Below, piece by piece: positions 498-15,804 of a stretch of 21,174 nt of DNA. Below the pieces are notes generated by a model. The model was not told where the DNA came from and searched no databases. It was given only the letters and a program-made list of their open reading frames with translations. Each line of letters begins with the position of its first letter. The stretch's first letter is position 1. The translations under genes and the position numbers were made by a program. Source of the stretch: a virus. The DNA is taken from the IMG/VR virus record IMGVR_UViG_3300028412_000028, positions 1-21,174 of that record, one strand, 5' to 3'.

Positions 498-506
498 ATT
501 ATATCA
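498..506 (-). promoter_or_regulatory. Extended -10 promoter (TGATATAAT), 9 nt before ATG
   Basis: On the minus strand the sequence reads TGATATAAT, a perfect TGn extended -10, with nine bases between the hexamer and the ATG at 488. Initiation at the usual distance would give an mRNA with almost no 5' leader. It lies in the 23-base gap after the Tal-like gene. Confidence 0.6.
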
Positions 507-511
507 CAGGT

Positions 512-1948
512 CTATGACCAAGTAGAGAAATTCCAAACAAAAGTGTCGGGATTATCCTCTGCATCATTCGCTGCCCACTTGTAGGGAGCTGAAGATTGCT
601 CTACTAACTGCACGCCAGTATCGACTACGCTCATTATCTCTGTTGGCTGTTGAATAAAGTTAAGTAGAGTTTCCTGTGCGTCCTCTGTAATGGTTTCATT
701 AATAAGTGAGTTTTGTAAGAACTCGATAATGCCCAAAGTCTTTACTGTTGCAAAGTCTACATTGTAAACAACACGCTCTCCGAAAGCGTCGATTGGTTTT
801 GCTGTGACTGACTGAATAATAATATCAATATCCTTATCCCGTATCGTAGAATTAATGTTCAGTCTTTGACCAGCCTTGAGTCCATGATTTGCTGTGCTGA
901 ATGAACCCTCATTGAGTTCGTTTGCAAAACTATCAAGCTCTGCTATAGCCCTTTCGATTGCCTCATCGTTTGTTGAGATTGTATTGTCTGATACTTGGTA
1001 CTCAAAGATACCGTATTCGGCGATACTGTCGTCGTTTGTAATACGAACCACAACTGGTATTTCAATGTTACCAATTACTTCAATTACATTTCCAACACTT
1101 GGAAAGTTCCCTGCGGTAAATCGGATATACTTTTCTTGGTATGACCACATAACATCAAAACTAGCGTCATCATTAAGGTATTCAACACCTACAGTTTGCA
1201 CAACATCATTTACTTCTACAATAGGCTCTCCTGCGAACTTATAACCTAGTGGATATACATCTTGGTCGGCGTCCTGACACACTGTCGTTTCAGTACGAGG
1301 CGTTGAACTTGGATTAGTACCACCTCTAACAGTTACTTTATTTCGTAGTTGCGTGATGTCCTCTGTGATTGCAAGCGACTCATAAAAATAGTTCTTTGAT
1401 GTATCGGTTATGTTAAAAGGTGCTTCCTCTGTGTTACGAGCAAAGAAGTGAATATCTTTTTGGTAGTCTACATACCAGTAGGCGTTCAAAGACTTTGCGA
1501 GCTTGTCAAAACATTCTGTTACAGTGAGTCCATTAAAAGAAAATGATTTGATAGTCTTAGAAAGTACTACATTGTTAGTTGTGAAACCATCATCTGTAAA
1601 GTCTGTCACAAGGGCGTTAACGATTGCAATAAGTGTCGTGTTCTCATACCTATTTGTCACAAGTTCTCTTTTAAGGTATTGAGAATAGTCTGAACACTTA
1701 ATATTGAATACTAATTGATTACCTGCGTTTGCTGATTCGTCTATCCTTACGATTGCACCCCCAAAGATTACCACGCTGTTGTTGGTTACGATCACCTCAT
1801 CATTTAATTGTGGTCTGTATACTTTATTGTCTTGCTTTTTTATACGAAAATCACACGAGTCTACTCGGTTGTTTATCTTGTTTGAAATTTTAAGCGAGGA
1901 TAGGAGAATTGATGATGTCCTATCAACACCTCCTATGTTAATTATCAT
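512..1948 (-). CDS. Tail tip / baseplate hub protein (Tal-like)
   Basis: 478 residues, encoded directly after the tape measure with an ATGA start/stop overlap, the usual place of the distal tail or tail-associated (Tal/gp27-like) hub protein in siphophages. The N-terminus (MIINIGGVDRTSSIL) and following region to about residue 90 look like the beta-rich first domain of such hubs (ligand-range segment RPQLNDEVIVTNN, then FGGAIVRIDE). The middle contains LTVTECFDKLAKSLNAYWYVD, and the stretch around 350-400 (NHGLKAGQRLNINS) matches the hub-type pattern in which a solution-type beta domain returns to the first domain. The last 60 residues are less conserved-looking. No separate Dit gene is seen between it and the tape measure. 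The role is inferred from order and fold-like motifs; receptor-binding or peptidase activity is not evident. Confidence 0.72.
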   Translation of the reverse strand: MIINIGGVDRTSSILLSSLKISNKINNRVDSCDFRIKKQDNKVYRPQLNDEVIVTNNSVVIFGGAIVRIDESANAGNQLVFNIKCSDYSQYLKRELVTNRYENTTLIAIVNALVTDFTDDGFTTNNVVLSKTIKSFSFNGLTVTECFDKLAKSLNAYWYVDYQKDIHFFARNTEEAPFNITDTSKNYFYESLAITEDITQLRNKVTVRGGTNPSSTPRTETTVCQDADQDVYPLGYKFAGEPIVEVNDVVQTVGVEYLNDDASFDVMWSYQEKYIRFTAGNFPSVGNVIEVIGNIEIPVVVRITNDDSIAEYGIFEYQVSDNTISTNDEAIERAIAELDSFANELNEGSFSTANHGLKAGQRLNINSTIRDKDIDIIIQSVTAKPIDAFGERVVYNVDFATVKTLGIIEFLQNSLINETITEDAQETLLNFIQQPTEIMSVVDTGVQLVEQSSAPYKWAANDAEDNPDTFVWNFSTWS

Positions 1949-3651
1949 ACCTGTGCGTTAAGTTTAACAATGCTCATAAGTTTATTACCAATCTTTTCTG
2001 CCATGTCGTCTTCTCCCATGAATGAGTTACCTGTGATGTTAATCACAACTCCACCACCTCCACCAAGTGAGTATGGGTTTTTGGTAGCGATTAAATAGTC
2101 GTCTGGGTGTGTGGTAATAATATTACCGTCTGGTGAAATAATGGCATCATTTACACTCATTGTTCTTTTTAGAAAGTTACCTCCTGAGCTAAATAAACCA
2201 CCAATACCACTCTTTGCTTTTCCAAGACCCCCCTTTATACTTCCACCGACTATAGATGCTCCCTCTTTTAAGTTCTCTAGTTGTCGCAAAAGTGGTGCCA
2301 TTAGTTTCATTATGAAATCAATAGCCTTTTTAAATATGTCAGTTATAGAATCCCAAGTTATAGCAAAGCCATCTTTCATGTTTGCAAACAAACTTGCAAA
2401 GACTGCCTTTATGGAGTCAAAGTTTGCAATAAACAATCTTATCCAACCTAGTAGCCCACCTGTTAGTATATTACCTACCAACAAGAGCCAACCTTGCGTT
2501 GAGTCGCCTAGTCCAGTCCACCAGTTAGCAAAGAAGTTGCCGAGTCCTATAAACAATTCTTTTACAAAAAGAACTACGCTATCCCAGTTTTTATATAGTA
2601 AATATAATCCAGCACCAAGCAACACAAGACCACCTAATATCAATGCAATAGGGTTAGCCATTAGAAAAGCGAGTGCTGTCCCTAGTGCTCCGACCACGGT
2701 CGTAATAAATCCAAATCCTGCAATAATTTTAGGCAGTAGTAGACCGAGTGTACCTATACCTCCAATAAGTCCTGCAACCGCCAAAGAAACTAGAGCTATA
2801 TTTTTTGTCAGTATTGGATTTTCCTGAACCCATGAAGCTATTTTATCAACAACGGGAGCAATCTTTTGAACCAAATCATTAAGAAGTGGAACAAATACTG
2901 AACCAATTATCTCTTGCATATCCCCGAAGGAGTTTTTAAGAGCTTGCATACCTCCTTCTGCAGTACCTCTTGCAGCTTCATTCAAACCACCAAAGTTTTG
3001 TGCGAGTACATCTGAAAGGGTGGCTGACCTTTCCATCTCTGTTCCAGTTTTTAGAATCTCTTCCTGTGCTTCAGAAAAAGTAATTCCCAATCGTGATAAA
3101 GCACCCACTTGCCCCATCATAACTTTACCAACCAAGTTACCAATGTTAATCATGTCTTCCTGGGTTGCGTTTACGCCCTTAGTAGCTACCACTAAGTCAA
3201 GCATTCCAGGAGTCAGTTTTGAAATAGTTTCAGTTTGAAGTGCAAAAGTAGCTAGTTGGGATTGACCAAATGAAGTTACTTCATCACCTACTACACCCAA
3301 TTTTTGCAACGCACTCGCTTGTTCTTTAAGTGCCAGCACACTTTTTTCCACTTCCCTCGTTACTACCTTTTCCCATGTTGCCCTGTCTTTATAAACTTCT
3401 ACTTGTTCACCTGTAGCAACAACTACGTTTTTAATCAATGTTTCTAAACGCTTGTCAGCTCGTTCCTGTTGTGCAAATGCCTTCAGTGAAGTTCCAACAG
3501 CAGCAGCGATTCCAGCAAATGCCACAGTTCCAACTGCTGCCATTCCTTTGAATTCAGACTTTAGCCCCTTTACTTTACCCTCAAAACCTTGCAACGCTTT
3601 AGATGCATTGTCTTTAAGGTCGAGTATGATGCTTAGATTATTTGTTGCCAT
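1945..3651 (-). CDS. Tail tape measure protein
   Basis: 568 residues. The N-terminal 60 residues are an amphipathic Ala/Lys-rich segment (DLKDNASKALQGFEGKVKGL) typical of tape measures, followed by a long helical region (62-280), a very hydrophobic part (about 285-355, several putative membrane-inserting helices) and a Gly-rich C-terminus. The motif NDAIISPDGNIITTHPDDYL at about 501-520 and a Gly run before VVINITGNS recur at tape-measure C-termini. It sits after the tail chaperone pair and overlaps the end of the frameshift product by 14 bases, the canonical siphophage order. It is short for the family, so the tail should be short. I see no peptidoglycan hydrolase domain. Confidence 0.9.
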   Translation of the reverse strand: MATNNLSIILDLKDNASKALQGFEGKVKGLKSEFKGMAAVGTVAFAGIAAAVGTSLKAFAQQERADKRLETLIKNVVVATGEQVEVYKDRATWEKVVTREVEKSVLALKEQASALQKLGVVGDEVTSFGQSQLATFALQTETISKLTPGMLDLVVATKGVNATQEDMINIGNLVGKVMMGQVGALSRLGITFSEAQEEILKTGTEMERSATLSDVLAQNFGGLNEAARGTAEGGMQALKNSFGDMQEIIGSVFVPLLNDLVQKIAPVVDKIASWVQENPILTKNIALVSLAVAGLIGGIGTLGLLLPKIIAGFGFITTVVGALGTALAFLMANPIALILGGLVLLGAGLYLLYKNWDSVVLFVKELFIGLGNFFANWWTGLGDSTQGWLLLVGNILTGGLLGWIRLFIANFDSIKAVFASLFANMKDGFAITWDSITDIFKKAIDFIMKLMAPLLRQLENLKEGASIVGGSIKGGLGKAKSGIGGLFSSGGNFLKRTMSVNDAIISPDGNIITTHPDDYLIATKNPYSLGGGGGVVINITGNSFMGEDDMAEKIGNKLMSIVKLNAQV

Positions 3652-4122
3652 TGCGTTTTTGCTTATTGTTTTCGAGCTTTCTTTTTGTTGATATTATTTG
3701 CGTGTAGCATTTAACATCAACGACATTCAACTCTCGTATTTCTTTAGGTGTCCACCCATACTCTGTGGAAAGCATCTCCATCAAAACCATGTTTGACGGG
3801 GGGGATTTACCCTCTAACTGCCACACTAAAGAGCTACCCCCTATGCTTTTTTTACTGCCTGCTCGATTCCTGCAATCAGTTTTTGTATCTCTTGTGATAG
3901 TTTTGTACCGTCAACAATAGACAAGTTTCTTCGCCATTCGTTTGAATACTTAACCTCGTTATTGTCATTGTCTAGAATTGATACGACTGCCACCTCTGTA
4001 AGTTTTGCGTTTCCTTTTAGTAGGTTTGATTCGCTACCGATTTCCATCTGGACATCTTCCATGTCACCGAATGATAATTCGTCTTTTGTAGTTACCTTGT
4101 ACTTTGTTAAGTCGATTTGCAT
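3638..4122 (-). CDS. Tail assembly chaperone fusion (gpGT-like) made by -1 frameshift
   Basis: The upstream chaperone ORF ends at 3841 just after a slippery heptamer. In the -1 frame the sequence stays open from the slip site to 3638, adding about 70 residues (with WQLEGKSPP and YGWTPKEIRELNVVDV) to the chaperone. Slipping at A-AAA-AAA replaces the last residue and stop with KSIGGSSLVWQLEG. The WTP-IR-L-V-DV pattern is typical of the short T-domain that follows gpG-like proteins. The only possible independent start of the T-frame is a GTG at 3826, which lies 15 bases past the first stop and has no ribosome site. In known siphophages the long form recruits the tape measure for tail assembly. 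The C-terminus overlaps the tape measure start by 14 bases. Confidence 0.8.
3841..4122 (-). CDS. Tail assembly chaperone (gpG-like), short form
   Basis: 93 residues starting MQIDLTKYKVTTKDELSFGD and ending EQAVKKA. It lies between the tail tube and the tape measure, where all lambda-like siphophages carry the chaperone. An in-frame ATG at 4149 would extend it by nine residues, but that start overlaps the tail tube stop by 17 bases. The ATG at 4122 lies ten bases after that stop and nine bases after a TATAAT hexamer at 4132-4137, so I prefer 4122. The protein is acidic in the middle and helical at the C-terminus. It has no recognised catalytic motif. Confidence 0.75.
   Translation of the reverse strand: MQIDLTKYKVTTKDELSFGDMEDVQMEIGSESNLLKGNAKLTEVAVVSILDNDNNEVKYSNEWRRNLSIVDGTKLSQEIQKLIAGIEQAVKKA
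3847..3853 (-). promoter_or_regulatory. -1 ribosomal frameshift slippery site A-AAA-AAA
   Basis: On the minus strand seven A residues fall in phase as GTA AAA AAA GCA TAG, i.e. X-XXY-YYZ with X=Y=Z=A, two codons before the zero-frame stop. Slipping back one base gives AAA AAA AGC ATA and joins the downstream T-frame. The bases just after (ATAGGGGGTAGCTC) are G-rich and could pair to stimulate the shift, but I have not folded them. Confidence 0.8.
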
Positions 4123-4132
4123 ATTATTTTGA

Positions 4133-5107
4133 TTATACTTCGTAAACATCTGTTAAGTTCTGTACTGATACTGTCGCCATTTCTGCGTCTGTGTTGTTGT
4201 AGAAAGCCTTGAATTCGATTTCCTCTGTAACGAGGTCATCATTACCTCCTGAGCGTTCCCAACCTTGAATTTGTACTTTGTTAAGTAGAGTAACAATTTT
4301 TGGTGAGTTACCTCCTGCAAGTACTGCCTCTCCTACGATAGCGATTTCCATGTAGACTGCTGTGTCTGCTGTAAACAAGTCTTTGAAAGTGTCATCTACA
4401 TAATTCTTTGTGATGTTTCCACTAATAGATAGCTTTGAGTTATAGTTATCTGGTGAGAATGAACCAAAAGAGAAGTCTGCGATTGCTCCAGTATCAAAAG
4501 TGATACCAACTTCTTTTGCTTTGATTGCTGTCGCACCAGTTAGACCTGCCTCTGTTGCTGCTATTTTGATTGTGATGTCTTTTCCGATGAAGTCGTATTC
4601 TGTATCGTATGATGCTGTGTCTGCATTTGTTGTTGCTTCTGCGAACATAAGATTTGATGAGAATCGTACGAAGTCATCAGTTGATGCTGTGATTTCTAGT
4701 GTATTTACAACTCCAGTGTCGAATACTTCTTGTGATACTCCTCCGTCTTTAGCGATAAGAGAAAGTGTAGGGTGTAGGATATTCTGCAACATAGAAAATG
4801 CGTGGTTTCGCACTGCACCTGTAACTGTTGTTGTGTCTACCTGTCCGAACACATTAAAGAACAAATACCCTACAACATCGGCGTGTACGATACCTGCAAT
4901 ATCTCCGTCATACCATTTCTTGATTACTCTTGAATTGGTTGAGTCTTCCATAACTCCTTGAGAGTTATCGTCAATAACCTTTTCTGCTCGTGCCATTACA
5001 TCAGCACTAACATTCTTTACCCATTTTGATGCTGTCGCTACAGGTGTACCTCTTGTTCCTTCAATAGAAATTCCGAGCTCAATTTGTTTTCCAATAATTT
5101 CTGCCAT
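4133..5107 (-). CDS. Major tail tube protein
   Basis: 324 residues with the beta-rich composition and repeating Thr/Asp/Gly pattern of Phage_tube-type proteins. The N-terminus (IGKQIELGISIEGTRGTPVA) is a common opening of this group, and the C-terminal part (VQIQGWERSGGNDDLVTEEIEF) matches the strand that closes the tube domain. The order terminator, tube, chaperones, tape measure is canonical. Unlike most genes here it has a roughly 50-base gap between an extended -10 box (5158-5166) and the ATG, containing a small hairpin (5132-5136 with 5145-5149) and a very AT-rich tract. This fits a strongly expressed structural gene with a real leader. Confidence 0.85.
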   Translation of the reverse strand: MAEIIGKQIELGISIEGTRGTPVATASKWVKNVSADVMARAEKVIDDNSQGVMEDSTNSRVIKKWYDGDIAGIVHADVVGYLFFNVFGQVDTTTVTGAVRNHAFSMLQNILHPTLSLIAKDGGVSQEVFDTGVVNTLEITASTDDFVRFSSNLMFAEATTNADTASYDTEYDFIGKDITIKIAATEAGLTGATAIKAKEVGITFDTGAIADFSFGSFSPDNYNSKLSISGNITKNYVDDTFKDLFTADTAVYMEIAIVGEAVLAGGNSPKIVTLLNKVQIQGWERSGGNDDLVTEEIEFKAFYNNTDAEMATVSVQNLTDVYEV

Positions 5108-5157
5108 ATTTTTATAATTTAATTTTTAATTGTATCTATGTTGCGATACTTACCTAT

Positions 5158-5166
5158 ATTATACCA
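5158..5166 (-). promoter_or_regulatory. Extended -10 promoter (TGGTATAAT) for the tail tube gene
   Basis: On the minus strand TGGTATAAT begins four bases after the stop of the tail terminator gene and lies 50 bases before the tube ATG. The predicted leader is about 43 bases, contains a 5-bp stem with an 8-base loop, and ends in an A/T-only tract before ATG. It is the only box of this class with a long leader. Confidence 0.55.
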
Positions 5167-5169
5167 CGC

Positions 5170-5592
5170 CTAGTTATTCGTAAGCGTTTTAATCTCTAGT
5201 GTCATATCAACAAACGCTGTTTTGTTTTTCTGTTCGATAGAAAGTCCAAAAGTATTAGCTGATACCTTAGCCCATACTCTATGACCGTCTATTGTGTTGA
5301 GATTCCAGTTTGTATCAAAGTGTTGCATTACATCGTCAAATGTTTTTGGCAATATGGTCTGATATACCTGTTGGGTTGTAGCTCCTGCAATGTTTACTAC
5401 AACGAACATTGAGAAGGTATAAATCTTAAAGTTCTCCTGATTAGTTTCAAAGCTATTCTCTACGCCTGTTGGGTATACGATAATCGCAGGGTACGCACGA
5501 GGGTCGTCTTGTAAAGGGTAAGAATATACCTCTTGTATGTTAGGTATTGCCTCGCACGCTGTTCGTATTTCTGTTATAAGTGTTTCTATCAT
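5170..5592 (-). CDS. Tail terminator protein
   Basis: 140 residues. It begins MIETLITEIRTACEAIPNIQ and contains DDPRAYPAIIVYPTG near residues 30-45, then alternating beta strands and a helix (QVYQTILPKTFDDVMQHFD). This alpha-beta-beta arrangement is typical of lambda gpU / HK97 gp10-neighbour tail terminators. Its place between the gp10-like protein and the tail tube agrees. In known phages this protein caps the tube and sets tail length. The assignment rests on context and general pattern; no catalytic residues are expected. Confidence 0.65.
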   Translation of the reverse strand: MIETLITEIRTACEAIPNIQEVYSYPLQDDPRAYPAIIVYPTGVENSFETNQENFKIYTFSMFVVVNIAGATTQQVYQTILPKTFDDVMQHFDTNWNLNTIDGHRVWAKVSANTFGLSIEQKNKTAFVDMTLEIKTLTNN

Positions 5593-5600
5593 ATATTTAT

Positions 5601-5609
5601 ATTATATCA
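5601..5609 (-). promoter_or_regulatory. Extended -10 promoter (TGATATAAT), 8 nt before ATG
   Basis: On the minus strand TGATATAAT ends eight bases before the ATG at 5592, in the 17-base gap between the gp10-like gene and the tail terminator. A transcript starting at the normal distance would begin at, or one or two bases before, the start codon. Confidence 0.6.
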
Positions 5610-6008
5610 TTATGAGCCTAGCTCGTCTGTTATCGTTTGTAGAAGTTTCTTCGCCTCGGAGTTTATTTTATTCTCCTGAGTCTTTACTGCGTAATCAAGC
5701 CAAGGTCTCTCTTGCATTTTATAAGTACCGTCATGTACAAACTTTGCATAGGGCGACTTTCTCTCGTTGACACTAATCACTAACTTAAAAGGTTCTATTT
5801 TATACTCGTGAGATTTCTTTAGGTTTCCTGAGTCGAGTGGAGAACCACCACCTGCACTACTAAGCCTCCAAGGCGATTGCACGATAGAGCTTTTATAGAA
5901 AGAATTAGCCCTCACTAGAAAAATATCAGTGGCGTCTTTTACCTCTTGGGGAAACTTTTGGATTGCCCTTGTCAGTTTCTCACTGTCTATCTTCATGCTT
6001 ACTGCCAT
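5610..6008 (-). CDS. HK97 gp10-like head-tail/tail-completion protein
   Basis: 132 residues. The pattern is that of the HK97-gp10 family: an N-terminal helix (KLTRAIQKFPQEVKDATD), a central DSGNLKKSHEYKIEP segment (in the family a G-L-S/K motif), then SPYAKFVHDGTYKMQERPWL near residues 83-103 and a final helix. The Y-A-x-x-V-x-x-G-T and RPWL motifs are the usual signature of this family. It starts one base before the stop of the preceding head-closure gene is cleared, with no Shine-Dalgarno sequence. It completes the head-to-tail connector block. Confidence 0.8.
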   Translation of the reverse strand: MAVSMKIDSEKLTRAIQKFPQEVKDATDIFLVRANSFYKSSIVQSPWRLSSAGGGSPLDSGNLKKSHEYKIEPFKLVISVNERKSPYAKFVHDGTYKMQERPWLDYAVKTQENKINSEAKKLLQTITDELGS

Positions 6009-6009
6009 A

Positions 6010-6333
6010 TTAGTTTTCTTGAGTTTTCTCTAATATAAGTTCAAGGTGCTTATTTGCCCCTATAAAGGAGTTATCTTGTATTAAGCGTACATCGTACCTG
6101 TTTGTCCCTACAACGAGCGTATCGCCCAATTTGACGCTTGTAGAGGGGTCACACCAAGCTATATAGGGAACAGTAAAGTTAAGTCCTAAGTTCTCCACCA
6201 TTTCTGGTGAGGCTTGCTGGATATGTCCTTTGAAAGTTCCAATAGTTCCAAGTTCTGATGACGAATAGCCGTCTGCTGTAGTCCACACATTCCTTTGTAT
6301 AGTAAATGTAGTTGTGTAGTTTCTTGAAATCAT
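6010..6333 (-). CDS. Head closure / head-tail joining protein (SPP1 gp16 type)
   Basis: 107 residues, small beta-barrel type. TTFTIQRNVWTTADGY at the N-terminus, GTFKGHIQQASPEMVENLG in the middle, and VKLGDTLVVGTNRYDVRLI near residues 66-84 follow the pattern of the phage head-tail joining family (SPP1 gp16 / HK97 gp7-like stoppers), in which a D-x-L-x-V-G-x-x-x-Y-x-V motif precedes the last strand. It lies directly between the adaptor and the gp10-like gene, as expected for the protein that closes the capsid after packaging. Confidence 0.75.
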   Translation of the reverse strand: MISRNYTTTFTIQRNVWTTADGYSSSELGTIGTFKGHIQQASPEMVENLGLNFTVPYIAWCDPSTSVKLGDTLVVGTNRYDVRLIQDNSFIGANKHLELILEKTQEN

Positions 6334-6335
6334 TT

Positions 6336-6917
6336 TTATATTATTATTCGCCTTCGTGACTGTAGTGTCGCCATTGCAAGCGTTGAATCGTCTTTGTGAC
6401 TGTCGCTCTTGTACTTCACTGTGTAGTTACCAATCTTTTCGCTTTCTACTTCTCCGTCTTGGTTAGTATTAGCGAGAACAATACCTGAAACAAGAACAAC
6501 ACAGGCGTGTCGTATGTCGTCTGGTACTTCCTCTGCATATCCCCACTTAGCAGTAACTCGCACATTCATTGTTCCATGTGGAACGACCTCATCTTTCATG
6601 AGGATATCTGTTTTTGCGTTCCCATTGAAAGGAACTGTTACAAAGTTGGTAGTCGCTACAAAGTTTTCTGCGTAGTCATCACCGAACTCTACAACAGGCG
6701 TACCAATAAAGTGTCCTACATTAAGCATATTGCACCCATTACCATTAAATAGTCTAGCGTTTGCTGTTGTGTCGGCTAGCCAGTCTACTCCAGTTACCTT
6801 TTCGATGTGAGCTGATACTCCTTGAATCCATTGCTCTACTTGTGGCTCAAAATCGTCTGCTATTTCTAGCAAAAGGTAGTTGGCTATGTCGGCGACTGTA
6901 CAATATAGTTTATTCAC
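6336..6917 (-). CDS. Head-tail connector / adaptor protein (gp6/gp15-like)
   Basis: 193 residues, starting with GTG at 6917, which overlaps the stop of the preceding small gene by eight bases (GTGAATAA). The N-terminal helical part (CTVADIANYLLLEIADDFEP and a helix to about residue 40, then SAHIEKVTGVDW) and the downstream beta region ending in VRVTAKWGYAEEVPDDIRHA match the phage QLRG / gp6-like adaptor family, whose typical A-x-x-W-G-Y-x-x-x-P-x-D-I motif is plainly present at about residues 121-136. It binds the portal ring and connects it to the stopper protein. Confidence 0.8.
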   Translation of the reverse strand: MNKLYCTVADIANYLLLEIADDFEPQVEQWIQGVSAHIEKVTGVDWLADTTANARLFNGNGCNMLNVGHFIGTPVVEFGDDYAENFVATTNFVTVPFNGNAKTDILMKDEVVPHGTMNVRVTAKWGYAEEVPDDIRHACVVLVSGIVLANTNQDGEVESEKIGNYTVKYKSDSHKDDSTLAMATLQSRRRIII

Positions 6918-7062
6918 TTTTTTTCTTGATTATCTCGTCACTCTTCATTTTAGTATTACTAATAAACGAAGTCAGTCGATACTCTTGTCGTAACTTTGGG
7001 TCAATAGGTTTATCAAACTCTACTTTCTTTCCTGTTTTTTTGTGTGTGTATTTGTAAGCCAT
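6910..7062 (-). CDS. Small basic protein of unknown function
   Basis: 50 residues, beginning MAYKYTHKKTGKKVEF and ending EIIKKKSE; about one residue in four is Lys or Arg, with no membrane segment and no cysteine. It starts six bases after a TGATATAAT box, so it looks independently transcribed, and its stop overlaps the GTG of the adaptor gene. Small basic ORFs at this place between capsid and adaptor are frequent, but I do not recognise a family. The strong promoter fit and the start/stop overlap support it as a real gene. Confidence 0.6.
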   Translation of the reverse strand: MAYKYTHKKTGKKVEFDKPIDPKLRQEYRLTSFISNTKMKSDEIIKKKSE

Positions 7063-7068
7063 ATATAT

Positions 7069-7077
7069 ATTATATCA
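7069..7077 (-). promoter_or_regulatory. Extended -10 promoter (TGATATAAT), 6 nt before ATG
   Basis: TGATATAAT on the minus strand ends six bases before the ATG at 7062, the tightest spacing seen here together with that at 9312. The transcript would begin at or next to the A of ATG. It lies downstream of a hairpin that follows the capsid gene. Confidence 0.62.
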
Positions 7078-7094
7078 TTTTCACTGCTAAATAA

Positions 7095-7118
7095 GTAACA
7101 GGGTTTTATCCCTGTGAC
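7095..7118 (-). terminator. Hairpin after the major capsid gene, possible weak terminator
   Basis: GTCACAGGG and CCCTGTTAC form a nine-base-pair stem with one mismatch around a six-base loop, starting 18 bases after the capsid stop. The bases that follow on the minus strand (TTATTTAGC) are only a weak U-tract, so full termination is doubtful. It may act as an attenuator or protect the 3' end of capsid mRNA. The next promoter lies 18 bases further on, which fits a transcript boundary. Confidence 0.45.
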
Positions 7119-7136
7119 CTATTAATAGTCAAACTA

Positions 7137-8498
7137 TTATGCTTCTACTGTTGCAAGTACTACTGCCGCTGTTGGCAAGATAGTGATTGCTCCAACTCGT
7201 GACACAAATCGTACAGCCTCTCGGTCTGTAGTGATAAGGTTGATGTCAGCGTCTGCAGCAACATTTCGTACTGTTCCTGCGTTGAATCGGTCTGCTACTA
7301 GTCCGTTCTTGAATCCTAGGATTGATGACTTTTTAAGGTCTGCAAGAAGTAGACATACTCCGTCAGTTGCGGCAACATCTGATGCTGCTGTCATAACTTC
7401 TACAGATACAAATGGCTTTCCAGCAAGAGTAGCGAAGCCACTGTTGTTGATAGGGTCATTGTAAATGAATCGTCCGTCTCCGTCTTTTAGAAGTCGAACA
7501 ATAGTTTTGATCGTTCGGTTTCCGTAATACTTTGCATTAGCATGTGCTCCCTCTGGAAGTACATCTTGCATTTCGTAGATTTTATCTATTGTGATTGTAG
7601 ATAGTGCTCCTGTAAGGTTTACAACTGGAACTCCTGCATTAGCAGTAATACCTGTGAATCCTCCGTTAGCTGTATCTCCTGAACCTGTTCCCATGAAGAA
7701 AGCCTTGTCTTCTGCTTTTGCGAATCCTTCTGCAACTCGTGTTGCGATGAATGAGAATAGGTCAATTTCTTCGTCTTCGATAAGCTCTCGTGTAAGAGTT
7801 ACGATTGCTGCTAGTTTCTTCAACTTTAGTTCTTGCTGTGCAAGTACGATTTGTGTTGATGGAATAACTGCTGCTTCTGCTACCCAGCCTACTGTTACAT
7901 CAGTTGCTAGTGCGTTAGCTTCGTATGCGTTCTTTGAAAGAGGTGTTGCGAAGAATTCTCGTCTTGCAACTCCAAATACAGTTGTAAGGTGTCGGATTTC
8001 AGCTGAAAGCTCTGTGTCCACTGCATATCCTGCGAATGGAGAACCAGACTTGTCAGTTGTCATTTCCTTAGCCATTGTATCATCTCCTGAAAGGATAGCG
8101 TTTGTGAATCCTTTTAGGAAAGTGTTGTACTTAGCGTGCTTTTCTGCAATCTTTTCTTCTTGTGAACCTGCACCTGCTTTTGCAAGGTCTTTTTGTGCCT
8201 TTACCCAAGTTTCAACTTCTGATTTCATTTCTGAAATTGAGCTGTCTAGTTTCTTTGAAAGTGATTCCTCAAGTTTCTTTGATGTCTTGTTGAAAGCCTT
8301 TTCTACAGCTTCTTCAACTTCAACTTCGTCTGCTGGGTCAGTTTCAGGAAGATCAGCTACTGCTGAAATTTCTTCTGAAACTACTTCTGCGTCTTCTGAC
8401 TCAAGTTCTTTAACCAAAACTTTTACTTCTGCTTTTTCTGATGCAGTTGCAAAACCTTTAAGCTGTAGAGCCTTGAGCATTTTTAGTAATTTACTCAT
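7137..8498 (-). CDS. Major capsid protein, HK97 fold with N-terminal scaffold domain
   Basis: 453 residues. Residues 1-125 are very rich in Glu, Lys and Ala and predicted as coiled coil (DEVEVEEAVEKAFNKTSKKL), matching the delta/scaffold domain of HK97 gp5-type proteins that is removed by the prohead protease encoded just upstream. The mature domain probably starts between about residues 125 and 160. It contains FGVARREFFATPLSK, WVAEAAVIPSTQI, KLAAIVTLTRELIEDEEIDL and the AEDKAFFMGTGSG motif, all characteristic of the phage capsid family. The leader is AT-rich with candidate -10 boxes. A hairpin follows the stop. Confidence 0.93.
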   Translation of the reverse strand: MSKLLKMLKALQLKGFATASEKAEVKVLVKELESEDAEVVSEEISAVADLPETDPADEVEVEEAVEKAFNKTSKKLEESLSKKLDSSISEMKSEVETWVKAQKDLAKAGAGSQEEKIAEKHAKYNTFLKGFTNAILSGDDTMAKEMTTDKSGSPFAGYAVDTELSAEIRHLTTVFGVARREFFATPLSKNAYEANALATDVTVGWVAEAAVIPSTQIVLAQQELKLKKLAAIVTLTRELIEDEEIDLFSFIATRVAEGFAKAEDKAFFMGTGSGDTANGGFTGITANAGVPVVNLTGALSTITIDKIYEMQDVLPEGAHANAKYYGNRTIKTIVRLLKDGDGRFIYNDPINNSGFATLAGKPFVSVEVMTAASDVAATDGVCLLLADLKKSSILGFKNGLVADRFNAGTVRNVAADADINLITTDREAVRFVSRVGAITILPTAAVVLATVEA

Positions 8499-8573
8499 AT
8501 TTAATTGTTAACTTATATAATACGGGTCTGTCGGTGAGCAGATTAGTATACCGATTATCCCTAATTGTAAATA
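8499..8573 (-). promoter_or_regulatory. Capsid gene leader with candidate -10 boxes
   Basis: This 75-base gap between protease and capsid is one of the few long gaps in the cassette. On the minus strand it holds TATACT (8545-8550) and TATTAT (8517-8522) as candidate -10 boxes; neither is preceded by TGn. The last bases before ATG are GTTAACAATTAAAT, sharing ACAATTAAA with the tail tube leader. No Shine-Dalgarno sequence is present. Confidence 0.35.
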
Positions 8574-9305
8574 TTATTTTAGTTGTCGGATTGATTGTAA
8601 AATCTTAACTTTGTGCTTTGCAAGGTTTTGTACTTCCATGTCTTGTACTGCTTTTGCAATTGAGTTGAGTAGTGCTTTTCTTTTATCAAAAATAGTTGCA
8701 GTTTCAATTTGCTTTTCTTCTACTACTTCGTCTATAGCATCCTCTACAATCTCCTCAATAGCTTTTTCTATTGTTGAGCGTGGATTAGCTGGCACTGCTA
8801 CCATAGAAAGCTCTAGTAGTTGTGACTTAGTGATTCGTCCTTTAGCGTCAAAGGCTTCTGGTATGAAACCAATACTTGATGCTGATAGAGTTCCCTCGAC
8901 TACCATTGCTTGTGCGAGTACTCCCTTTGGATTAGCCTTTGAGAACTGTAATTCACCTTTTAGTTTGTTATCCTCTACTCTTGCGTTGTTTACTTTTCCT
9001 ATGATGTGCGTGATTGATGAATAGTTGTGCGAGTCTATAAGCACAGGGTTTTTCTTAAAGAACTTAAGGTCAAAGTTCTGCATAACGAAGTCACCATGTC
9101 GGTCTTCTTTATCATCTGACATTACCATTGTGTACACATCCTCGTCTTTGTCATCTGCTCCTTTGACAACAGTCTTTTCAAATTCAACGGGTACTTCTAT
9201 AGAAAGTCCTTTGTGGGTTGACTTTACCTTATTCCAAAGTTCTTCGTAGTTTGTCACTTCGTAGTCTTGAAAAGTCTTTTGGTTTATAGTTAGAAATTTT
9301 TTCAT
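8574..9305 (-). CDS. Prohead maturation protease, HK97 gp4 type
   Basis: 243 residues. The catalytic triad of the HK97/S78 family can be placed: His93 in LIDSHNYS, Ser144 in SASSIGFIPE and Glu165 in LLELSMVAVPANP. The segment DRHGDFVMQNFDLKFFKKNP before the His and G-x-L-x-F around 117-122 also follow the family. The C-terminal 60 residues are acidic then basic helices without clear homology. It lies between portal and capsid as expected, and in known systems it cuts the capsid scaffold domain. It begins six bases after a TGATATAAT box. Confidence 0.9.
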   Translation of the reverse strand: MKKFLTINQKTFQDYEVTNYEELWNKVKSTHKGLSIEVPVEFEKTVVKGADDKDEDVYTMVMSDDKEDRHGDFVMQNFDLKFFKKNPVLIDSHNYSSITHIIGKVNNARVEDNKLKGELQFSKANPKGVLAQAMVVEGTLSASSIGFIPEAFDAKGRITKSQLLELSMVAVPANPRSTIEKAIEEIVEDAIDEVVEEKQIETATIFDKRKALLNSIAKAVQDMEVQNLAKHKVKILQSIRQLK

Positions 9306-9311
9306 AGTTTA

Positions 9312-9320
9312 ATTATATCA
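9312..9320 (-). promoter_or_regulatory. Extended -10 promoter (TGATATAAT), 6 nt before ATG
   Basis: TGATATAAT on the minus strand, six bases before the protease ATG at 9305 and within the 21-base gap after the portal gene. It predicts a leaderless protease(-capsid) transcript. Confidence 0.62.
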
Positions 9321-9326
9321 TAATGA

Positions 9327-11252
9327 TTACACCGAACACTCACAATTAATAGTTTCTCCTGCACTTGCTGACGAGTCGAGTGGATACATCAGTCCATTTG
9401 AGAAAGGCATATCGATTGGTCGCTCTTCTCCGTCAATAGCTTGATGATTATCTCGCACACCTCCCTTTATTCCAGGTGACCATACCCATATCTTTGTCTT
9501 AAGTCCCATCTGCTCATAACTTTCCATTGTTGCCAATTGTTTAATAGCTGATGTTTCAGTGTTAGCGATAGTTTCTAGTCGATAGTCGTCTACTTTGTCA
9601 TATACAAGTCCCACTCGGTCAACAAGTTGCTTTGTAGTTTCGTTGTTTTTATACCATTCTGATATTTGCTTTGATAGGTCTTTTGCTGTTGTGTCATTTA
9701 CAGTAGTTGCAAAGAACTTAAATCGCTTTTCTACCGCAGTGTCGATTGCAGTCGAGTAGTTGAAAGCTCTATCAACTTTGAATATGTCCATGACTTCCTG
9801 TCCTGATTCCATCACAATATCTTTCATTGTAGCAAGGATTGGAGTCATGAGAGTAATCTCAAGGTTTACATTAAACAATTCTTCTGCGAGGGTTTTCACC
9901 TTCACTTGTTTTCTAGCCTGCACTGAGGCGACAATTCTTTTCTTCTGGGCGTTAAAGTAGCTCTTTAATTCAGCTTTGAATAGTCTTTGCTTTGATGCAA
10001 GGCTTTTCATGTGGCTGGCGTGGTATACCTGTCGAAAGTCTTTGTTTCGTAGTGGGTGTACTAAAATACCTTGCTTTACTATTGGTTGGGCGTTCTGGTG
10101 TATTACTTCATCTCCGTCTGTTACAGGCTCTAGTCCTAGCATTTCACGCTTCTCATTGAGTGTCACAGCGTTGACGTCATGACTTGCCCGTACTAATAGT
10201 ATTTTAGCTTCAACATCTTCTGGTGTAGGGTCTACGAAGTCGATAGTCACATCTTTAGGTGCTAGTTTCCAATCAAGTAGATTTACAAGCTCGGCAATAA
10301 TAGGCTTCATTGTTTCTCGTAGAAAGATTCGGATAGAGGCGTCTGCGTTAGCGTATGTTTGGTCTTCTGTGATACCCATAACTGATGCAGGTACTCCAGT
10401 AATGGCGATAATATCTCTTGCAAGTAGTTTCTTTGATTCGATGTAGGCAAGCTCGTTAATATTGAGTCCGAGTCTTTGGTAAGTAGCGTCACCTCCGAGG
10501 AAAAGAGGCGAACCTGCTTCATTGTTTGTATATCCCTCTTTGTAATCTTGTTTGAGTCTTGTTAGTTGCTCTGGGTTAAGGACATTCTTGAATGAGAACA
10601 CGCCATCAACAACACCACCATTTTTAAGGATAGAGATTTGTTGGTTCGATGTTTCCTTATCTGCAAGAAGTGATTGCATACCTGCCTTTAATATTGAAAT
10701 ACCTTCTAGTGGATTCTTTGGGTTAGGGTTTACCCAGTAGATAGTATTCTCAAAAGGCACATCTCGTGTAATACCACTGTGAGTATCTGTGTATGTAAAT
10801 GATTTGATTCTACTCATCTTTTCGTTCCTCTCGTAGTTGATTGTGATACCTGTTGAGTTGAGGATATGTAGTTCAGTAACGATTGCGTTCTCTGTGAACA
10901 CTGAGTTGTTGGTTATCTTTTCTATAACACAAAAGCCTGTTGTATCGTGATAGATAGATGCTAGTTTCCAAAAGATGTTGCCTGTTTGGTAGTCGTTAGG
11001 TCGTGAGAGTAAGTCATTGAGCCAGTGAATAGTGTTTACCTTTTCATCTCGTATGTTCTTAATAACAAATTCTGTTTCTGATACTTTCTCTGCTCGCTTT
11101 GAAATACCTTTGTTAAGGTACAGTGAAGTTTCGTTCCAATTAAGTCCGTCTGTTGGGTTGAGCTTATAATCGCCACTGTGCCTACCGAGTGAGTTATAAA
11201 GAGAATATCGAGTATCTGCTGACTTCTTAAAGAAGTTAAATGGATTTTTCAT
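9327..11252 (-). CDS. Portal protein fused to Mu gpF-like minor head protein
   Basis: 641 residues, well beyond the roughly 400-450 of a plain HK97 portal. Residues about 30-400 are an HK97-type portal (WLNDLLSRPNDYQTGNIFWK, the NPLEGISILKAGMQSL helix, ARDIIAITGVPASVMGITED and FVDPTPEDVEAKILL). After a helical linker (about 410-500) the C-terminal part is a Mu-gpF/SPP1 gp7 head-morphogenesis domain: RLETIANTETSAIKQLATME, then RDNHQAIDGEERPID, YPLDSSASAGETINCECSV at the C-terminus, the usual H-x-x-x-D-G and N-C-x-C pattern. In most phages these are two adjacent genes. There is no stop or frameshift between them here. No separate gpF gene is seen downstream. Confidence 0.88.
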   Translation of the reverse strand: MKNPFNFFKKSADTRYSLYNSLGRHSGDYKLNPTDGLNWNETSLYLNKGISKRAEKVSETEFVIKNIRDEKVNTIHWLNDLLSRPNDYQTGNIFWKLASIYHDTTGFCVIEKITNNSVFTENAIVTELHILNSTGITINYERNEKMSRIKSFTYTDTHSGITRDVPFENTIYWVNPNPKNPLEGISILKAGMQSLLADKETSNQQISILKNGGVVDGVFSFKNVLNPEQLTRLKQDYKEGYTNNEAGSPLFLGGDATYQRLGLNINELAYIESKKLLARDIIAITGVPASVMGITEDQTYANADASIRIFLRETMKPIIAELVNLLDWKLAPKDVTIDFVDPTPEDVEAKILLVRASHDVNAVTLNEKREMLGLEPVTDGDEVIHQNAQPIVKQGILVHPLRNKDFRQVYHASHMKSLASKQRLFKAELKSYFNAQKKRIVASVQARKQVKVKTLAEELFNVNLEITLMTPILATMKDIVMESGQEVMDIFKVDRAFNYSTAIDTAVEKRFKFFATTVNDTTAKDLSKQISEWYKNNETTKQLVDRVGLVYDKVDDYRLETIANTETSAIKQLATMESYEQMGLKTKIWVWSPGIKGGVRDNHQAIDGEERPIDMPFSNGLMYPLDSSASAGETINCECSV

Positions 11253-11262
11253 ATATATAAAT

Positions 11263-11271
11263 ATTATACCA
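11263..11271 (-). promoter_or_regulatory. Extended -10 promoter (TGGTATAAT), 10 nt before ATG
   Basis: TGGTATAAT on the minus strand starts two bases after the terminase stop and ends ten bases before the portal ATG at 11252. A TSS seven bases after the box would leave a leader of about three bases. Confidence 0.58.
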
Positions 11272-11273
11272 TA

Positions 11274-12530
11274 TTACGCCACACCGATAAAAGGTTGTTT
11301 GAGTTTTGAGAATATTGCTCCTCGAAGTGAATCGCACAAATGGTCGTTACCATCTTGTGGCTCGTTGGTAGGATTCTTATTTCTATCCAACGCCCAGCAG
11401 TAGCCTTGCATTTCTTTGATAAGGTTTACACTGTCCTCGGTGTAGTAAACATTCTTACCTAGTAATAAATCAACACCTGCTTTTCGTGAGCCTTTCCCCT
11501 TTGTAGTGTTAATAGCGTTCCACCCGTAGGTCTGTAGCTCTGCTGTAGACTTTGGCTCTGCACCGTCTGCGAATATCTCTGAGTACTTTGGTATTCCTAC
11601 CTGTTCCATTCTCTCCGATAGCCTTTTGTTGATGAGTCCTGTTTCGTAGATAAGCTCCTTTACATAAATATTATCGTTATGCATCTTTATCTCGCATACT
11701 GCTGCACTATCTTGAGAAAACCCATAATCAACACCAAAGAACGAAGTATAATCAAGCTCGTCAAACTCCTTGCTTGTAATTGGTTGCCAGTCCTTGAAGA
11801 TACGACCTCTCGCTCCTGACGGTACATATCCCATAATCATATTGTGGTAATGGTCTGGGTTTACTCGCTTATACTTATCAAAGTTATCTAGCGTAGTCTG
11901 GTTGAGGTTGTGTAGGTTGTCTTGGTAGTTTGAGTATACAAATAGCGTTGAGTCCTTTTCACTGTCTTTTAGCTCTGCCTTATAAAAACCATCTATCCCA
12001 ATGTCGAGAAGATTAAACCACCTTTTAATTATCCAGTGTTCCTTTGGAGGAAAGTTAAACAGTAAGAATATCTTAATGTCTGCCTTAATCGTTCGTAGTG
12101 AATCGTCTAGCTGTAGAAAGTCCTCCTCTGATACTTCCTCTGCCTCCTCGATGATCACATCGGTATATCCTGCGAGTGATTTTAACTTTGCTTTCTGGTC
12201 GCCTGATGACTTCCTGAATCCAATACCATTAATAGTATTTTTATTAAGGTTGATTGTAAGCGTATGCTCTTTAACATCAATGGTGCTTTTGCCTCCTGTT
12301 AGTTCGTTCTCCTCGAGCCTATCCACTATTTCTTGGAATATAGAGTTACGAACATCACCGAGTACATACCGCATGATTGCACATCGGAAGTATGGCTTTG
12401 ATATAAGTGATGACATTGCATACTGACTAGCGAAGTAAGAACTACCTCCAGCACGCCCTCCACCAATAAGGATATACCTCTTGTTTGTTGTGAGTATAGG
12501 TGCGTAAGGCTCTAGTATCTTATTTCTCAT
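11274..12530 (-). CDS. terL: Terminase large subunit
   Basis: 418 residues, ATPase plus nuclease. The P-loop region is GGGRAGGSS (residues 23-31), Walker B with catalytic Glu is TDVIIEEAEEVSEED (about 123-137), and the coupling motif region is LLFNFPPKEHW (156-166). The C-terminal RNase H-type nuclease has FGVDYGFSQD (Asp268), FADGAEP (Asp322) and DGNDHLCDSLRGA (Asp396/Asp400). Length and order fit a PBSX/Terminase_3-like protein. The P-loop lacks the usual Lys (GGRGSGKS becomes GGRAGGSS), which is odd; see findings. It overlaps the small subunit gene by 11 bases, so the two are co-transcribed, and probably translated by coupling. Confidence 0.92.
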   Translation of the reverse strand: MRNKILEPYAPILTTNKRYILIGGGRAGGSSYFASQYAMSSLISKPYFRCAIMRYVLGDVRNSIFQEIVDRLEENELTGGKSTIDVKEHTLTINLNKNTINGIGFRKSSGDQKAKLKSLAGYTDVIIEEAEEVSEEDFLQLDDSLRTIKADIKIFLLFNFPPKEHWIIKRWFNLLDIGIDGFYKAELKDSEKDSTLFVYSNYQDNLHNLNQTTLDNFDKYKRVNPDHYHNMIMGYVPSGARGRIFKDWQPITSKEFDELDYTSFFGVDYGFSQDSAAVCEIKMHNDNIYVKELIYETGLINKRLSERMEQVGIPKYSEIFADGAEPKSTAELQTYGWNAINTTKGKGSRKAGVDLLLGKNVYYTEDSVNLIKEMQGYCWALDRNKNPTNEPQDGNDHLCDSLRGAIFSKLKQPFIGVA

Positions 12531-12993
12531 TTTCTAGTCTTGGGCTAGCGATAACCTCCCATTCTATCTTGTGGATTGACTCAAGTGGGTTGCCATCTTT
12601 TCCAGTAAGCTCCTGTTTATCCGAGTAGCCATGCTTAGTCATAAGTAGTTTAGCCATAACAGGATTATATTCTCCTGATATACCATTACTCGTTAGTCTT
12701 TGCTCTTGTTCGCTTAGTATTAGCTTTAAGATGTAAGAAAACTCTGCCTTTTCTTCTTGACTTCCCCAGTCATATATGGTTTCTCTTGATACTCTTAGGT
12801 AACATGCTAGACCTGCAATACTTGGTAAATTAACTATCTTTTTCAGTCTTGTCTTCTGTACTCCATTCTCATCTAGAACAACATCACCATCTTCTGTGTA
12901 GATAGGTACTTCTGTGTACTTGTCCTTACAGTCTGCAAGGTACTGTTTTGCAAGTGCTACTGTGTCTTTTGTGTAGAGTGTTGGTCGAGCCAT
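12520..12993 (-). CDS. terS: Terminase small subunit
   Basis: 157 residues beginning MARPTLYTKDTVALAKQYL. A helix-turn-helix segment, PSIAGLACYLRVSRETIYDW (about 77-96), is followed by a helix and the motif NPVMAKLLMTKHGYSDKQEL, then TGKDGNPL; these are the hallmark of the gp3-like / DNA-packaging small terminase family. It recognises the packaging site and regulates the large subunit, whose gene overlaps its end. An insert of about 20 residues (EDGDVVLDENGVQKTR) between the first helix and the HTH is an ordinary variation. It starts eight bases after TGTTATAAT. Confidence 0.88.
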   Translation of the reverse strand: MARPTLYTKDTVALAKQYLADCKDKYTEVPIYTEDGDVVLDENGVQKTRLKKIVNLPSIAGLACYLRVSRETIYDWGSQEEKAEFSYILKLILSEQEQRLTSNGISGEYNPVMAKLLMTKHGYSDKQELTGKDGNPLESIHKIEWEVIASPRLENEK

Positions 12994-13001
12994 ATACTCT
13001 T

Positions 13002-13010
13002 ATTATAACA
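13002..13010 (-). promoter_or_regulatory. Extended -10 promoter (TGTTATAAT) for the packaging genes, 8 nt before ATG
   Basis: TGTTATAAT on the minus strand ends eight bases before the TerS ATG at 12993. The TAA stop of the TM2 gene (13003-13005) lies inside the box, so one sequence serves as both stop codon and promoter. Confidence 0.6.
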
Positions 13011-13242
13011 CGAGCCTCCCCTCTTTGTCCTTAAAGTTTCCTGTTGCAATTATTATAATATCTATCAATGCCCATATACCTGTTACGAGTAGTCCTATAA
13101 AAGAAAGTGTAAGCAGTAGCATAGCGATTCCTGAACCTATTTTCCCTACATAGAATCGGTGAATACCGAATGCTCCTACAAATATTGCAAGTAGTAGCGT
13201 TACTAGTAATTGTTTATCTGATTTGTTGTTTGTTTTTTTCAT
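13003..13242 (-). CDS. TM2-domain membrane protein
   Basis: 79 residues with the classic TM2 signature: a basic N-terminus (MKKTNNKSDKQ), first membrane helix (LLVTLLLAIFVGAFGIHRFYVG, with the invariant G-x-H-x-F-Y-x-G), a short loop (KIGSG), then the second helical region with GIWALIDIIIIATG and a polar tail (NFKDKEGRLVL). TM2 proteins are small membrane proteins of largely unknown role, found in bacteria and some phages. It lies just before the terminase small subunit gene. Its role in the phage is unknown; effects on the host envelope are only a guess. Confidence 0.85.
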   Translation of the reverse strand: MKKTNNKSDKQLLVTLLLAIFVGAFGIHRFYVGKIGSGIAMLLLTLSFIGLLVTGIWALIDIIIIATGNFKDKEGRLVL

Positions 13243-13249
13243 AATTATT

Positions 13250-13414
13250 TTATTGTTGCTGAGCCATAGCAGTCACGATTGACCGTATTCCCTCGTGGTG
13301 TGCTATGCCTGCAATTTCCATTAATATTTCAAGCGTTTCATCTCTATCTTTTTCTTTGACAAGTTTTAGTATTCTCTTAAAGTTGTCTGATTGTTGTTCT
13401 GGGTGTGTTTTCAT
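13250..13414 (-). CDS. Small helical protein of unknown function
   Basis: 54 residues beginning MKTHPEQQSDNFKRILKLVK and ending TAMAQQQ. The start follows the stop of the upstream gene by two bases and its stop lies seven bases before the TM2 ATG, so it fits exactly in an otherwise empty gap. The sequence is amphipathic helical with charged and Leu/Ile residues (KDRDETLEILMEIAGIAHHEG). No cysteine or membrane segment. No family recognised. It may act in a complex with its neighbours, but nothing in the sequence shows this. Confidence 0.6.
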   Translation of the reverse strand: MKTHPEQQSDNFKRILKLVKEKDRDETLEILMEIAGIAHHEGIRSIVTAMAQQQ

Positions 13415-13416
13415 AA

Positions 13417-13797
13417 TTATTTGTTATTTTCTGATACGCTTTTAACAATTCTTACAATGTCGAGAAGTGTTATTGCTGTTGGATTAATGTGTAACTCTGT
13501 ATTTGAGAATGTTTCAAGTTCCTTTACCAATACATCATGTTCTTCTGCTAGCTCGAATACAAGTGGGTACAATGGCTTTAGTGTTTCTGATGCCTCACAG
13601 TTCTTACCTAGATTTTGTACTTCGTACCATAGCGTTGCTCCTTTGACTGTAGACTTTACTCCTTTGCGTTCAATATCAAAGTCGTTGTCCTTTGTGTTTT
13701 CCAGTGCTATTGAGTATTCATGCGTTAGCCTTTCTTTATTGGTTTCGATTCTTGCGTAAATGTTTTCTAGTGTTTTGATGTTTTCTTCGTTGAACAT
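13417..13797 (-). CDS. Helical protein of unknown function
   Basis: 126 residues, acidic, mostly alpha-helical (ENIKTLENIYARIETNKERL at residues 5-24, then EDEHDVLVKEL-type segments), no cysteine motif except one Cys (KNCEAS), no signal peptide. It lies five bases after the stop of the preceding gene and two before the next start. The start codon ATG follows an A/T-only stretch without a ribosome site. I recognise no domain. Its place in a run of short unique genes before the terminase suggests an accessory role. Confidence 0.65.
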   Translation of the reverse strand: MFNEENIKTLENIYARIETNKERLTHEYSIALENTKDNDFDIERKGVKSTVKGATLWYEVQNLGKNCEASETLKPLYPLVFELAEEHDVLVKELETFSNTELHINPTAITLLDIVRIVKSVSENNK

Positions 13798-13801
13798 AGT
13801 T

Positions 13802-14047
13802 TTATTTTTTATCTTTTTCTAATTCTTCCTCCTCCTCCCACAAGTCCTTTGTTGTGAAAGTGTATTCTATAATCTGACCTTTGTGTTCTGTTTGCCCCTC
13901 TGTGCTTGCTGATGAGGATAGTACAAGCACTAGGCTATCAAGTGTTGATGGTTGTATCTGTTCCTTTGAGTTAAACTTGAATGTTCCTACGAATTGCTCC
14001 GTTTCGTACTCATAGCCTGATTGTGTTTTCTTTTCAGTGAATGTCAT
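13802..14047 (-). CDS. Small acidic protein of unknown function
   Basis: 81 residues, beta-rich in the N-terminal two thirds (QSGYEYETEQFVGTFKFNSK, then LDSLVLVLSSSAS and QIIEYTFTTKDLW) and ending in a strongly acidic/basic tail (EEEEELEKDKK). It begins one base after the stop of the upstream gene. The charged tail could bind a partner protein or mimic DNA, but that is only a thought. No family recognised. Confidence 0.6.
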   Translation of the reverse strand: MTFTEKKTQSGYEYETEQFVGTFKFNSKEQIQPSTLDSLVLVLSSSASTEGQTEHKGQIIEYTFTTKDLWEEEEELEKDKK

Positions 14048-14048
14048 A

Positions 14049-14309
14049 TTATTTACATATTTCCACCTTTAATGTCGTTGATGGTACGAATACTATCCTT
14101 ACTGGGTATAGCTTGTTAGTCCTGTTGGGGATAGTTATATCTCCTTGTCGGCATAGCTTGAACTTGAAGTAGCCAAAGCCAAATATTACTAACTTCCAAT
14201 CTAGAAAGTCTTTTTCTTTTCGTATTACCTTTAATGTTGACATAATATCTTTTACTGTAAGCGATGTCGGTGCTAGGTATCGTTTGAGTTCTGGTTGTCG
14301 CTTTGTCAT
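14049..14309 (-). CDS. Small basic protein of unknown function
   Basis: 86 residues, basic, beginning MTKRQPELKRYLAP. A helix (TVKDIMSTLKVIRKEKDFLD) is followed by a beta-rich half (KLVIFGFGYFKFKLCRQGD and VRIVFVPSTTLKVEICK). Two Cys are present (Cys55 region and near the C-terminus) but no CxxC. It starts ten bases after TGATATAAT and may head the small-gene transcript (14309 to 13003). No family recognised. DNA binding is possible given the charge but not shown. Confidence 0.6.
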   Translation of the reverse strand: MTKRQPELKRYLAPTSLTVKDIMSTLKVIRKEKDFLDWKLVIFGFGYFKFKLCRQGDITIPNRTNKLYPVRIVFVPSTTLKVEICK

Positions 14310-14319
14310 ATATACTATT

Positions 14320-14328
14320 ATTATATCA
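14320..14328 (-). promoter_or_regulatory. Extended -10 promoter (TGATATAAT), 10 nt before ATG
   Basis: TGATATAAT on the minus strand, ten bases before the ATG at 14309. The TAA stop of the upstream 62-residue gene (14321-14323) lies within this box. Confidence 0.6.
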
Positions 14329-14993: not shown

Positions 14994-15060
14994 ATATTAT
15001 TTATTAGTTTCCAGTTTTTAATGTTTATAGGTCATATCAAATAATAAAAGTTAGTAAAAT

Positions 15061-15801: not shown

Positions 15802-15804
15802 ATA

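Follow-up and report, generated by a model that had tools for sequence, protein, structure and literature searches.

What do eight copies of the nonanucleotide TGNTATAAT (TGnTATAAT) do at the gene junctions of a phage genome, several of them directly in front of start codons? The DNA in question, hereafter the window, is the whole 21,174-nucleotide (nt) stretch at positions 1 to 21,174 of IMG/VR virus record IMGVR_UViG_3300028412_000028. Protein family scans identify it as a 21-kb piece from the genome of a tailed phage, and the minus strand is the coding strand throughout. We estimate a probability of roughly three in four that the boxes act as extended -10 promoters and yield mRNAs with no leader or almost none, with a member of the Patescibacteria as the most likely host.

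A sequence-only reading of this DNA had reported eight such boxes on the coding strand, all at gene boundaries, and had proposed a motif scan with a shuffled control. Our whole-window scan recovered all eight exact matches at the same positions, all on the minus strand and at gene junctions, and found no exact TGnTATAAT on the plus strand. The motif is enriched, since 100 dinucleotide shuffles of the window gave a mean of 1.2 matches (sd 1.16, maximum 5) and none of them reached eight. The boxes are listed below, with gene starts taken from simple calls based on open reading frames, the gap defined as the nucleotides between the end of the box and the ATG, and related contigs given by number.

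498..506, minus strand: box TGATATAAT, gap 9 to the ATG of gene 21-488 (tail-fibre-like, phrog_5417/4176)
5158..5166, minus strand: box TGGTATAAT, gap 50 to the tail-tube gene 4133-5107; putative leadered promoter, invariant in L185 and L191
5601..5609, minus strand: box TGATATAAT, gap 8 to gene 5170-5592; kept in L185 (gap 6) and L191 (gap 8)
7069..7077, minus strand: box TGATATAAT, gap 6 to gene 6910-7062; stands at the head of the connector genes 6910, 6336, 6010 and 5610
9312..9320, minus strand: box TGATATAAT, gap 6 to the head protease gene 8574-9305; kept in L010, L012, L017 and L032
11263..11271, minus strand: box TGGTATAAT, gap 10 to the portal gene 9327-11252; kept in L010, L011, L012 and L017
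13002..13010, minus strand: box TGTTATAAT, gap 8 to the small terminase (TerS) gene 12520-12993; the TAA within the box serves as stop codon for 13003-13242; kept in L010, L011, L012 and L013
14320..14328, minus strand: box TGATATAAT, gap 10 to gene 14049-14309; the TAA within the box serves as stop codon for 14321-14509; kept in L013

The claim that seven boxes end 6-10 nt before an ATG also held. Among the 34 gene starts, seven have a box at gap 5-10, while an order-1 Markov model of those AT-rich upstream regions themselves gives a mean of 0.021 and a maximum of 2 in 3000 simulations. The bare hexamer TATAAT is at chance level (25 observed, 21.2 expected), and thus the signal resides in the TGn extension and the position. 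Enrichment over shuffled or control sequence, as expected of leaderless genes, is seen both in the window and in the Patescibacteria genomes described below. A compact AT-rich genome might by composition produce TATAAT-like strings at junctions, partly through TAA or TGA stop codons, and boxes 13002 and 14320 do reach into the 3' end of the upstream gene and include its stop codon. However, about 0.02 start-adjacent boxes are expected under a model of the same regions, the stop codons sit in different registers of the box, and the boxes of TerS in L011 and gene 14049 in L013 are present even though the upstream DNA is unrelated to that of the window. Chance is therefore hardly credible as an explanation.

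The boxes have the form of a sigma-70 extended -10 element, in which TGn abuts TATAAT, the n is free and a -35 element is dispensable. A -35-like hexamer is paired with one box only (13002), and a scan of the window for classical two-hexamer -35/-10 promoters was not above shuffles (39 versus 35.8). To follow the boxes in orthologues, we compared relatives at 80-95% protein identity (L010-L013, L017, L185 and L191) and a few more distant ones, all of them fragmentary contigs. Across 17 orthologue comparisons, TATAAT was changed at none of 102 positions and TG at three of 34 (31 kept), while the n position was changed in five of 17 and the spacer was identical in six of 15 and altered in nine. 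The protease box of L191, which lies 20 nt from its ATG, was excluded from this count. An invariant TATAAT next to a variable n and spacer is characteristic of an extended -10 promoter. Even where TG is lost, as for gene 6910 in L185 and L191, TATAAT and a gap of 6 are retained.

The spacing points in the same direction. As a -10 hexamer occupies -12 to -7, a gap of 6 places +1 on the A of the ATG. Two of the seven start-adjacent boxes have this gap, and the other five imply leaders of about 2-4 nt. The sequence-only reading had put transcription starts on or next to the start codon, and the predicted starts agree with this in two cases exactly and in the others to within those few nucleotides. 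Relatives further away have a looser box, TGnTAnnnT, but a sharper gap of 6: this arrangement was found in 22 of 108 genes in an Antarctic-type group (GC content 45-49%) and in six of 48 genes in relatives with 58-65% terminase identity, with 50 distinct sites in the relatives overall. A TAnnnT hexamer whose end lies some 6 nt ahead of the start codon is thus found in the window (gaps 6-10), in the relatives and in the Patescibacteria, the latter two with a sharp peak at 6.

No SD-like (Shine-Dalgarno) motif was found in any of 28 window genes, as expected of leaderless genes with an adjacent -10 element. The same absence, together with the AT-rich upstream regions and the T that commonly precedes the ATG in boxless genes too, might indicate that the motif is an unstructured ribosome entry element beside the start codon and not a promoter. 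Such an element would have no need for TGnTATAAT with a free third position, nor for a TATAAT that stays fixed while the spacer diverges. The tail-tube box is separated from its ATG by 50 nt, genes that lack a box are just as AT-rich and are presumably translated as well, and the gap peak in Patescibacteria falls exactly at the -10 to +1 distance. We regard ribosome entry as quite improbable.

We then propose a model in which the boxes are extended -10 promoters. They would be read by the housekeeping RNA polymerase of the host, with no -35 element required. At seven boxes transcription would begin 0-4 nt ahead of the ATG, and the mRNAs would have no leader or hardly any; 70S ribosomes can initiate on such mRNAs without an SD sequence. 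Genes that overlap a boxed gene or begin a few nucleotides past its stop would probably be translated by re-initiation. The boxed genes are 14049, TerS, portal, protease, 6910, 5170 and 21-488; coupled genes, which overlap the preceding gene or begin 1-7 nt past its stop, include the large terminase gene TerL, 6336, 6010, 5610, 13802, 13417, 13250, 13003 and 512. Nearly the whole morphogenesis cassette could thus be read without SD sites, with a leaderless start heading each unit and putative re-initiation within it. Several early-type genes have neither a box nor coupling nor a leader element.

The tail tube and the capsid, the proteins needed in most copies, would be expressed differently. 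The tail-tube gene has its box 50 nt upstream, with an AT-rich leader and a 5' hairpin, and the capsid gene is preceded by a conserved 45-nt leader-like element. The core of the earlier proposal, leaderless transcription from extended -10 boxes, is thus supported by orthologue conservation, the gap of 6 in relatives, the lack of SD motifs and the corresponding pattern in Patescibacteria; it does not extend to box 5158 and the capsid gene, which appear leadered, nor is the pattern specific to the phage. Internal promoters by themselves do not imply the many short internal transcripts of that proposal, since a single terminator-like hairpin (7098-7115) adjoins such a junction. The leader and junction elements, and the genes around them, are as follows.

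5132..5149, minus strand: 5' stem-loop GTATCGCAACATAGATAC in the leader of the tail-tube mRNA; it starts 8 nt past box 5158, where the transcript is predicted to begin
7098..7115, minus strand: hairpin after the capsid gene, just before box 7069; terminator-like or a 3' stabiliser (z -3.3, weak T tract)
8518..8562, minus strand: 45-nt element AGGGATAATCGGTATACTAATCTGCTCACCGACAGACCCGTATTA upstream of the major capsid gene 7137-8498; lacks TGnTATAAT and contains TATACT
Window gene content: tail genes, tape measure, tail tube, connector proteins, HK97-type capsid and protease
Further content: portal fused to a MuF domain, terminases, then dATP/dGTP pyrophosphohydrolase, exonuclease and small genes

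The tail-tube hairpin is conserved, with a single U-A to U-G change in L185, and may act as an mRNA stabiliser. The hairpin at 7098-7115 shows a compensatory change from GGG/CCC to GGA/TCC in L185 and L191. The capsid element is almost invariant in L010, L017, L185 and L191 and its fold is not strong (z 0.5); a promoter plus leader and a protein-binding site are both candidate roles. A scan with CTCACCGACAGACCCG found it in close relatives only, the remaining matches being in unrelated contigs.

To ask where else this arrangement occurs, we searched cellular genomes for TGNTATAAT-N5-9-ATG. In 287 Patescibacteria genomes it was found 5224 times versus 879 in the reversed control (5.9-fold), with an excess in 264 genomes. 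In 30 box-rich Patescibacteria genomes, which were chosen for high box counts so that absolute numbers are biased upwards, 1531 boxes lie at N5-9 versus 284 at N15-19, and the gap of 6 alone accounts for 735 versus 15 in the reversed control (rows summed by hand). Genome G166 follows the phage pattern, with SD in none of 73 genes and a box at gap 6 in 15 genes, while G112, G160 and G248 have SD in 34-40% of genes. As judged from these sequence counts, the placement of a box at the start codon is widespread in Patescibacteria and not specific to phages. A general loss of the anti-SD sequence in Patescibacteria was considered and dropped, as the 16S ends are intact in most of the genomes checked; the end is altered (ACTTCC) in G011 and not readable in G166. 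In G011 the 3' end of the 16S rRNA (L177) is GGATCACTTCC, an altered anti-SD, and AAGGAG, the SD form counted across all 287 genomes, is not enriched there (24 versus 30).

The chromosomal boxes also bear on the possibility that those of the window are late-specific promoters for a phage-encoded or phage-modified sigma factor, in the manner of T4 late genes, instead of promoters for the unmodified host polymerase. All eight boxes lie in 498-14328, among late and adjacent genes; no exact TGnTATAAT occurs in 14329-21174, the early-type third of the window that includes the exonuclease; and prophage relatives lack the boxes. However, TGnTATAAT is the extended -10 consensus of housekeeping sigma-70, and the identical box is abundant in the identical place before Patescibacteria chromosomal genes. 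The absence of all eight boxes from the early-type third has a p of only about 0.04, and no sigma-like gene was found among the window proteins scanned, the record being a fragment. We therefore consider a dedicated late sigma factor unlikely. The early genes may rely on a different signal.

Two further features of the early-type region were observed. A dATP/dGTP pyrophosphohydrolase-like protein (PF18909, phrog_2252) is encoded at 14493-14993 on the minus strand; such enzymes act on deoxynucleoside triphosphate pools in phages with modified DNA. Short tandem-repeat proteins are encoded at 15805-16509 and 16572-17114, also on the minus strand, with YdcK-type beta-solenoid repeats and STGN/STGD repeats.

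The host is probably a Patescibacterium, one of the ultra-small bacteria of the Candidate Phyla Radiation (CPR), as suggested by gene matches and start-codon context. The best cellular terminase match (51% identity) comes from a Candidatus Moraniibacteriota bacterium and lies on a 146-kb contig, which also bears GatA, ClpB, MurJ and a 16S gene and thus appears to carry a chromosomal prophage. A portal profile matched 10 of 380 Patescibacteria genomes, including G015 (E 1e-92, the best) and G166, and a protein search of genome contigs with the window portal alone gave no match. Homologous structural genes are therefore present within Patescibacteria chromosomes, as expected for a phage of this group. 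T precedes the ATG in 73% of window genes, in 51-66% of genes in most Patescibacteria sampled (33% in G248) and in 19% in Pedobacter. Cas12f-like (TNB domain) and Cas1 genes adjoin the Moraniibacteriota prophage (L020:75-2765).

A Bacteroidota host was considered because Bacteroidota likewise lack SD sequences. It was set aside since box-N5-9-ATG is only 1.5-fold enriched in 41 larger Bacteroidota genomes (486 versus 318 in the reversed control), compared with 5.9-fold in Patescibacteria. Moreover, 36 Pedobacter genes had no TGnTATAAT at gap 5-10 and the looser TGnTAnnnT once, at gap 9, and Pedobacter has A, not T, before the ATG. A 7.9-kb contig binned as a Bacteroidetes metagenome-assembled genome (L021) encodes a terminase 44% identical to that of the window and may be a misbinned phage contig.

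Several observations weigh against our interpretation. Five of the seven gaps are 8-10 and not 6, and the 30 box-rich genomes were a selected set. In the Moraniibacteriota genome the box enrichment is weak (12 versus 6) and the gap-6 peak is not clear. A terminase profile found a related terminase in none of 247 genomes of the order of G166, and terminase relatives at 39-40% identity occur in Pedobacter. Finally, the late clusters of the prophage-like relatives in Patescibacteria genomes (L205-L210 and L020), in which SD is also largely absent, have essentially no boxes. Since these relatives lack internal boxes, the split late cassette would be a clade innovation: the predicted internal leaderless promoters are a trait of the window's clade and of certain lake-type relatives and not of the phage family as a whole. 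We lean towards a scenario in which extended -10 leaderless initiation is a major mode in Patescibacteria, with some lineages devoid of any SD, and one phage clade has divided what is usually one late operon into leaderless cistrons, each with its own promoter, and has retained leaders with conserved 5' elements for capsid and tail tube alone.

Transcription and translation initiation are little studied in Patescibacteria, as few have been cultured. A consensus predicting mRNA 5' ends in these bacteria and their phages makes start-codon annotation, the choice of promoters for genetic tools and host prediction for orphan viral contigs directly testable. A late cassette divided into separate leaderless units would, if true, offer an unusual means of setting virion-protein stoichiometry without SD sites.

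Late promoters of T4 (TATAAATA) have no -35 element, need the phage sigma factor gp55 and clamp proteins, and give leadered mRNAs with SD. The boxes described here share with them a strong -10 box without -35 before late genes and differ in that T4 depends on gp55 and the clamp and has SD leaders. The lambda cI mRNA is made by the host polymerase and encodes a single regulatory gene. It resembles our proposal as a leaderless phage mRNA made through the host polymerase, whereas a run of structural genes is involved here. Its leaderless transcription from PRM is mentioned in PMC9031893. In phiKZ, late promoters (TATG) start transcription at or in the start-codon region of late genes and give leaderless transcripts (PMC5312081). 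That system differs in that a phage multisubunit RNA polymerase reads a different motif; no match to such a polymerase was found among the window proteins scanned, the record being a 21-kb fragment.

Leaderless initiation is thus already known from Deinococcus, Actinobacteria and phage transcripts. The case of Patescibacteria and their phages appears unreported, as we found no paper on it in the open-access literature, which is no proof of absence. A survey of 953 bacterial genomes described TA-led leaderless genes in Actinobacteria and other groups (Zheng 2011, PMC3160421) and recognised them, as here, by a TAnnnT some 12 bp ahead of the start; the terms 'TM7' and 'candidate' are absent from that text. 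A scan of the whole bacterial domain (PMC12340547), whose main text does not name Patescibacteria, experimentally validated leaderless promoters at -10-adjacent ORFs of Deinococcus-Thermus. These resemble the boxes reported here in having a -10 hexamer that lies a few bp ahead of the ORF and works as a promoter, a spacing requirement and leaderless mRNA, with other genes SD-led. They differ in that the Deinococcus-Thermus element is TANNNT in cellular genomes, whereas TGnTATAAT occurs here in a phage cassette and in Patescibacteria.

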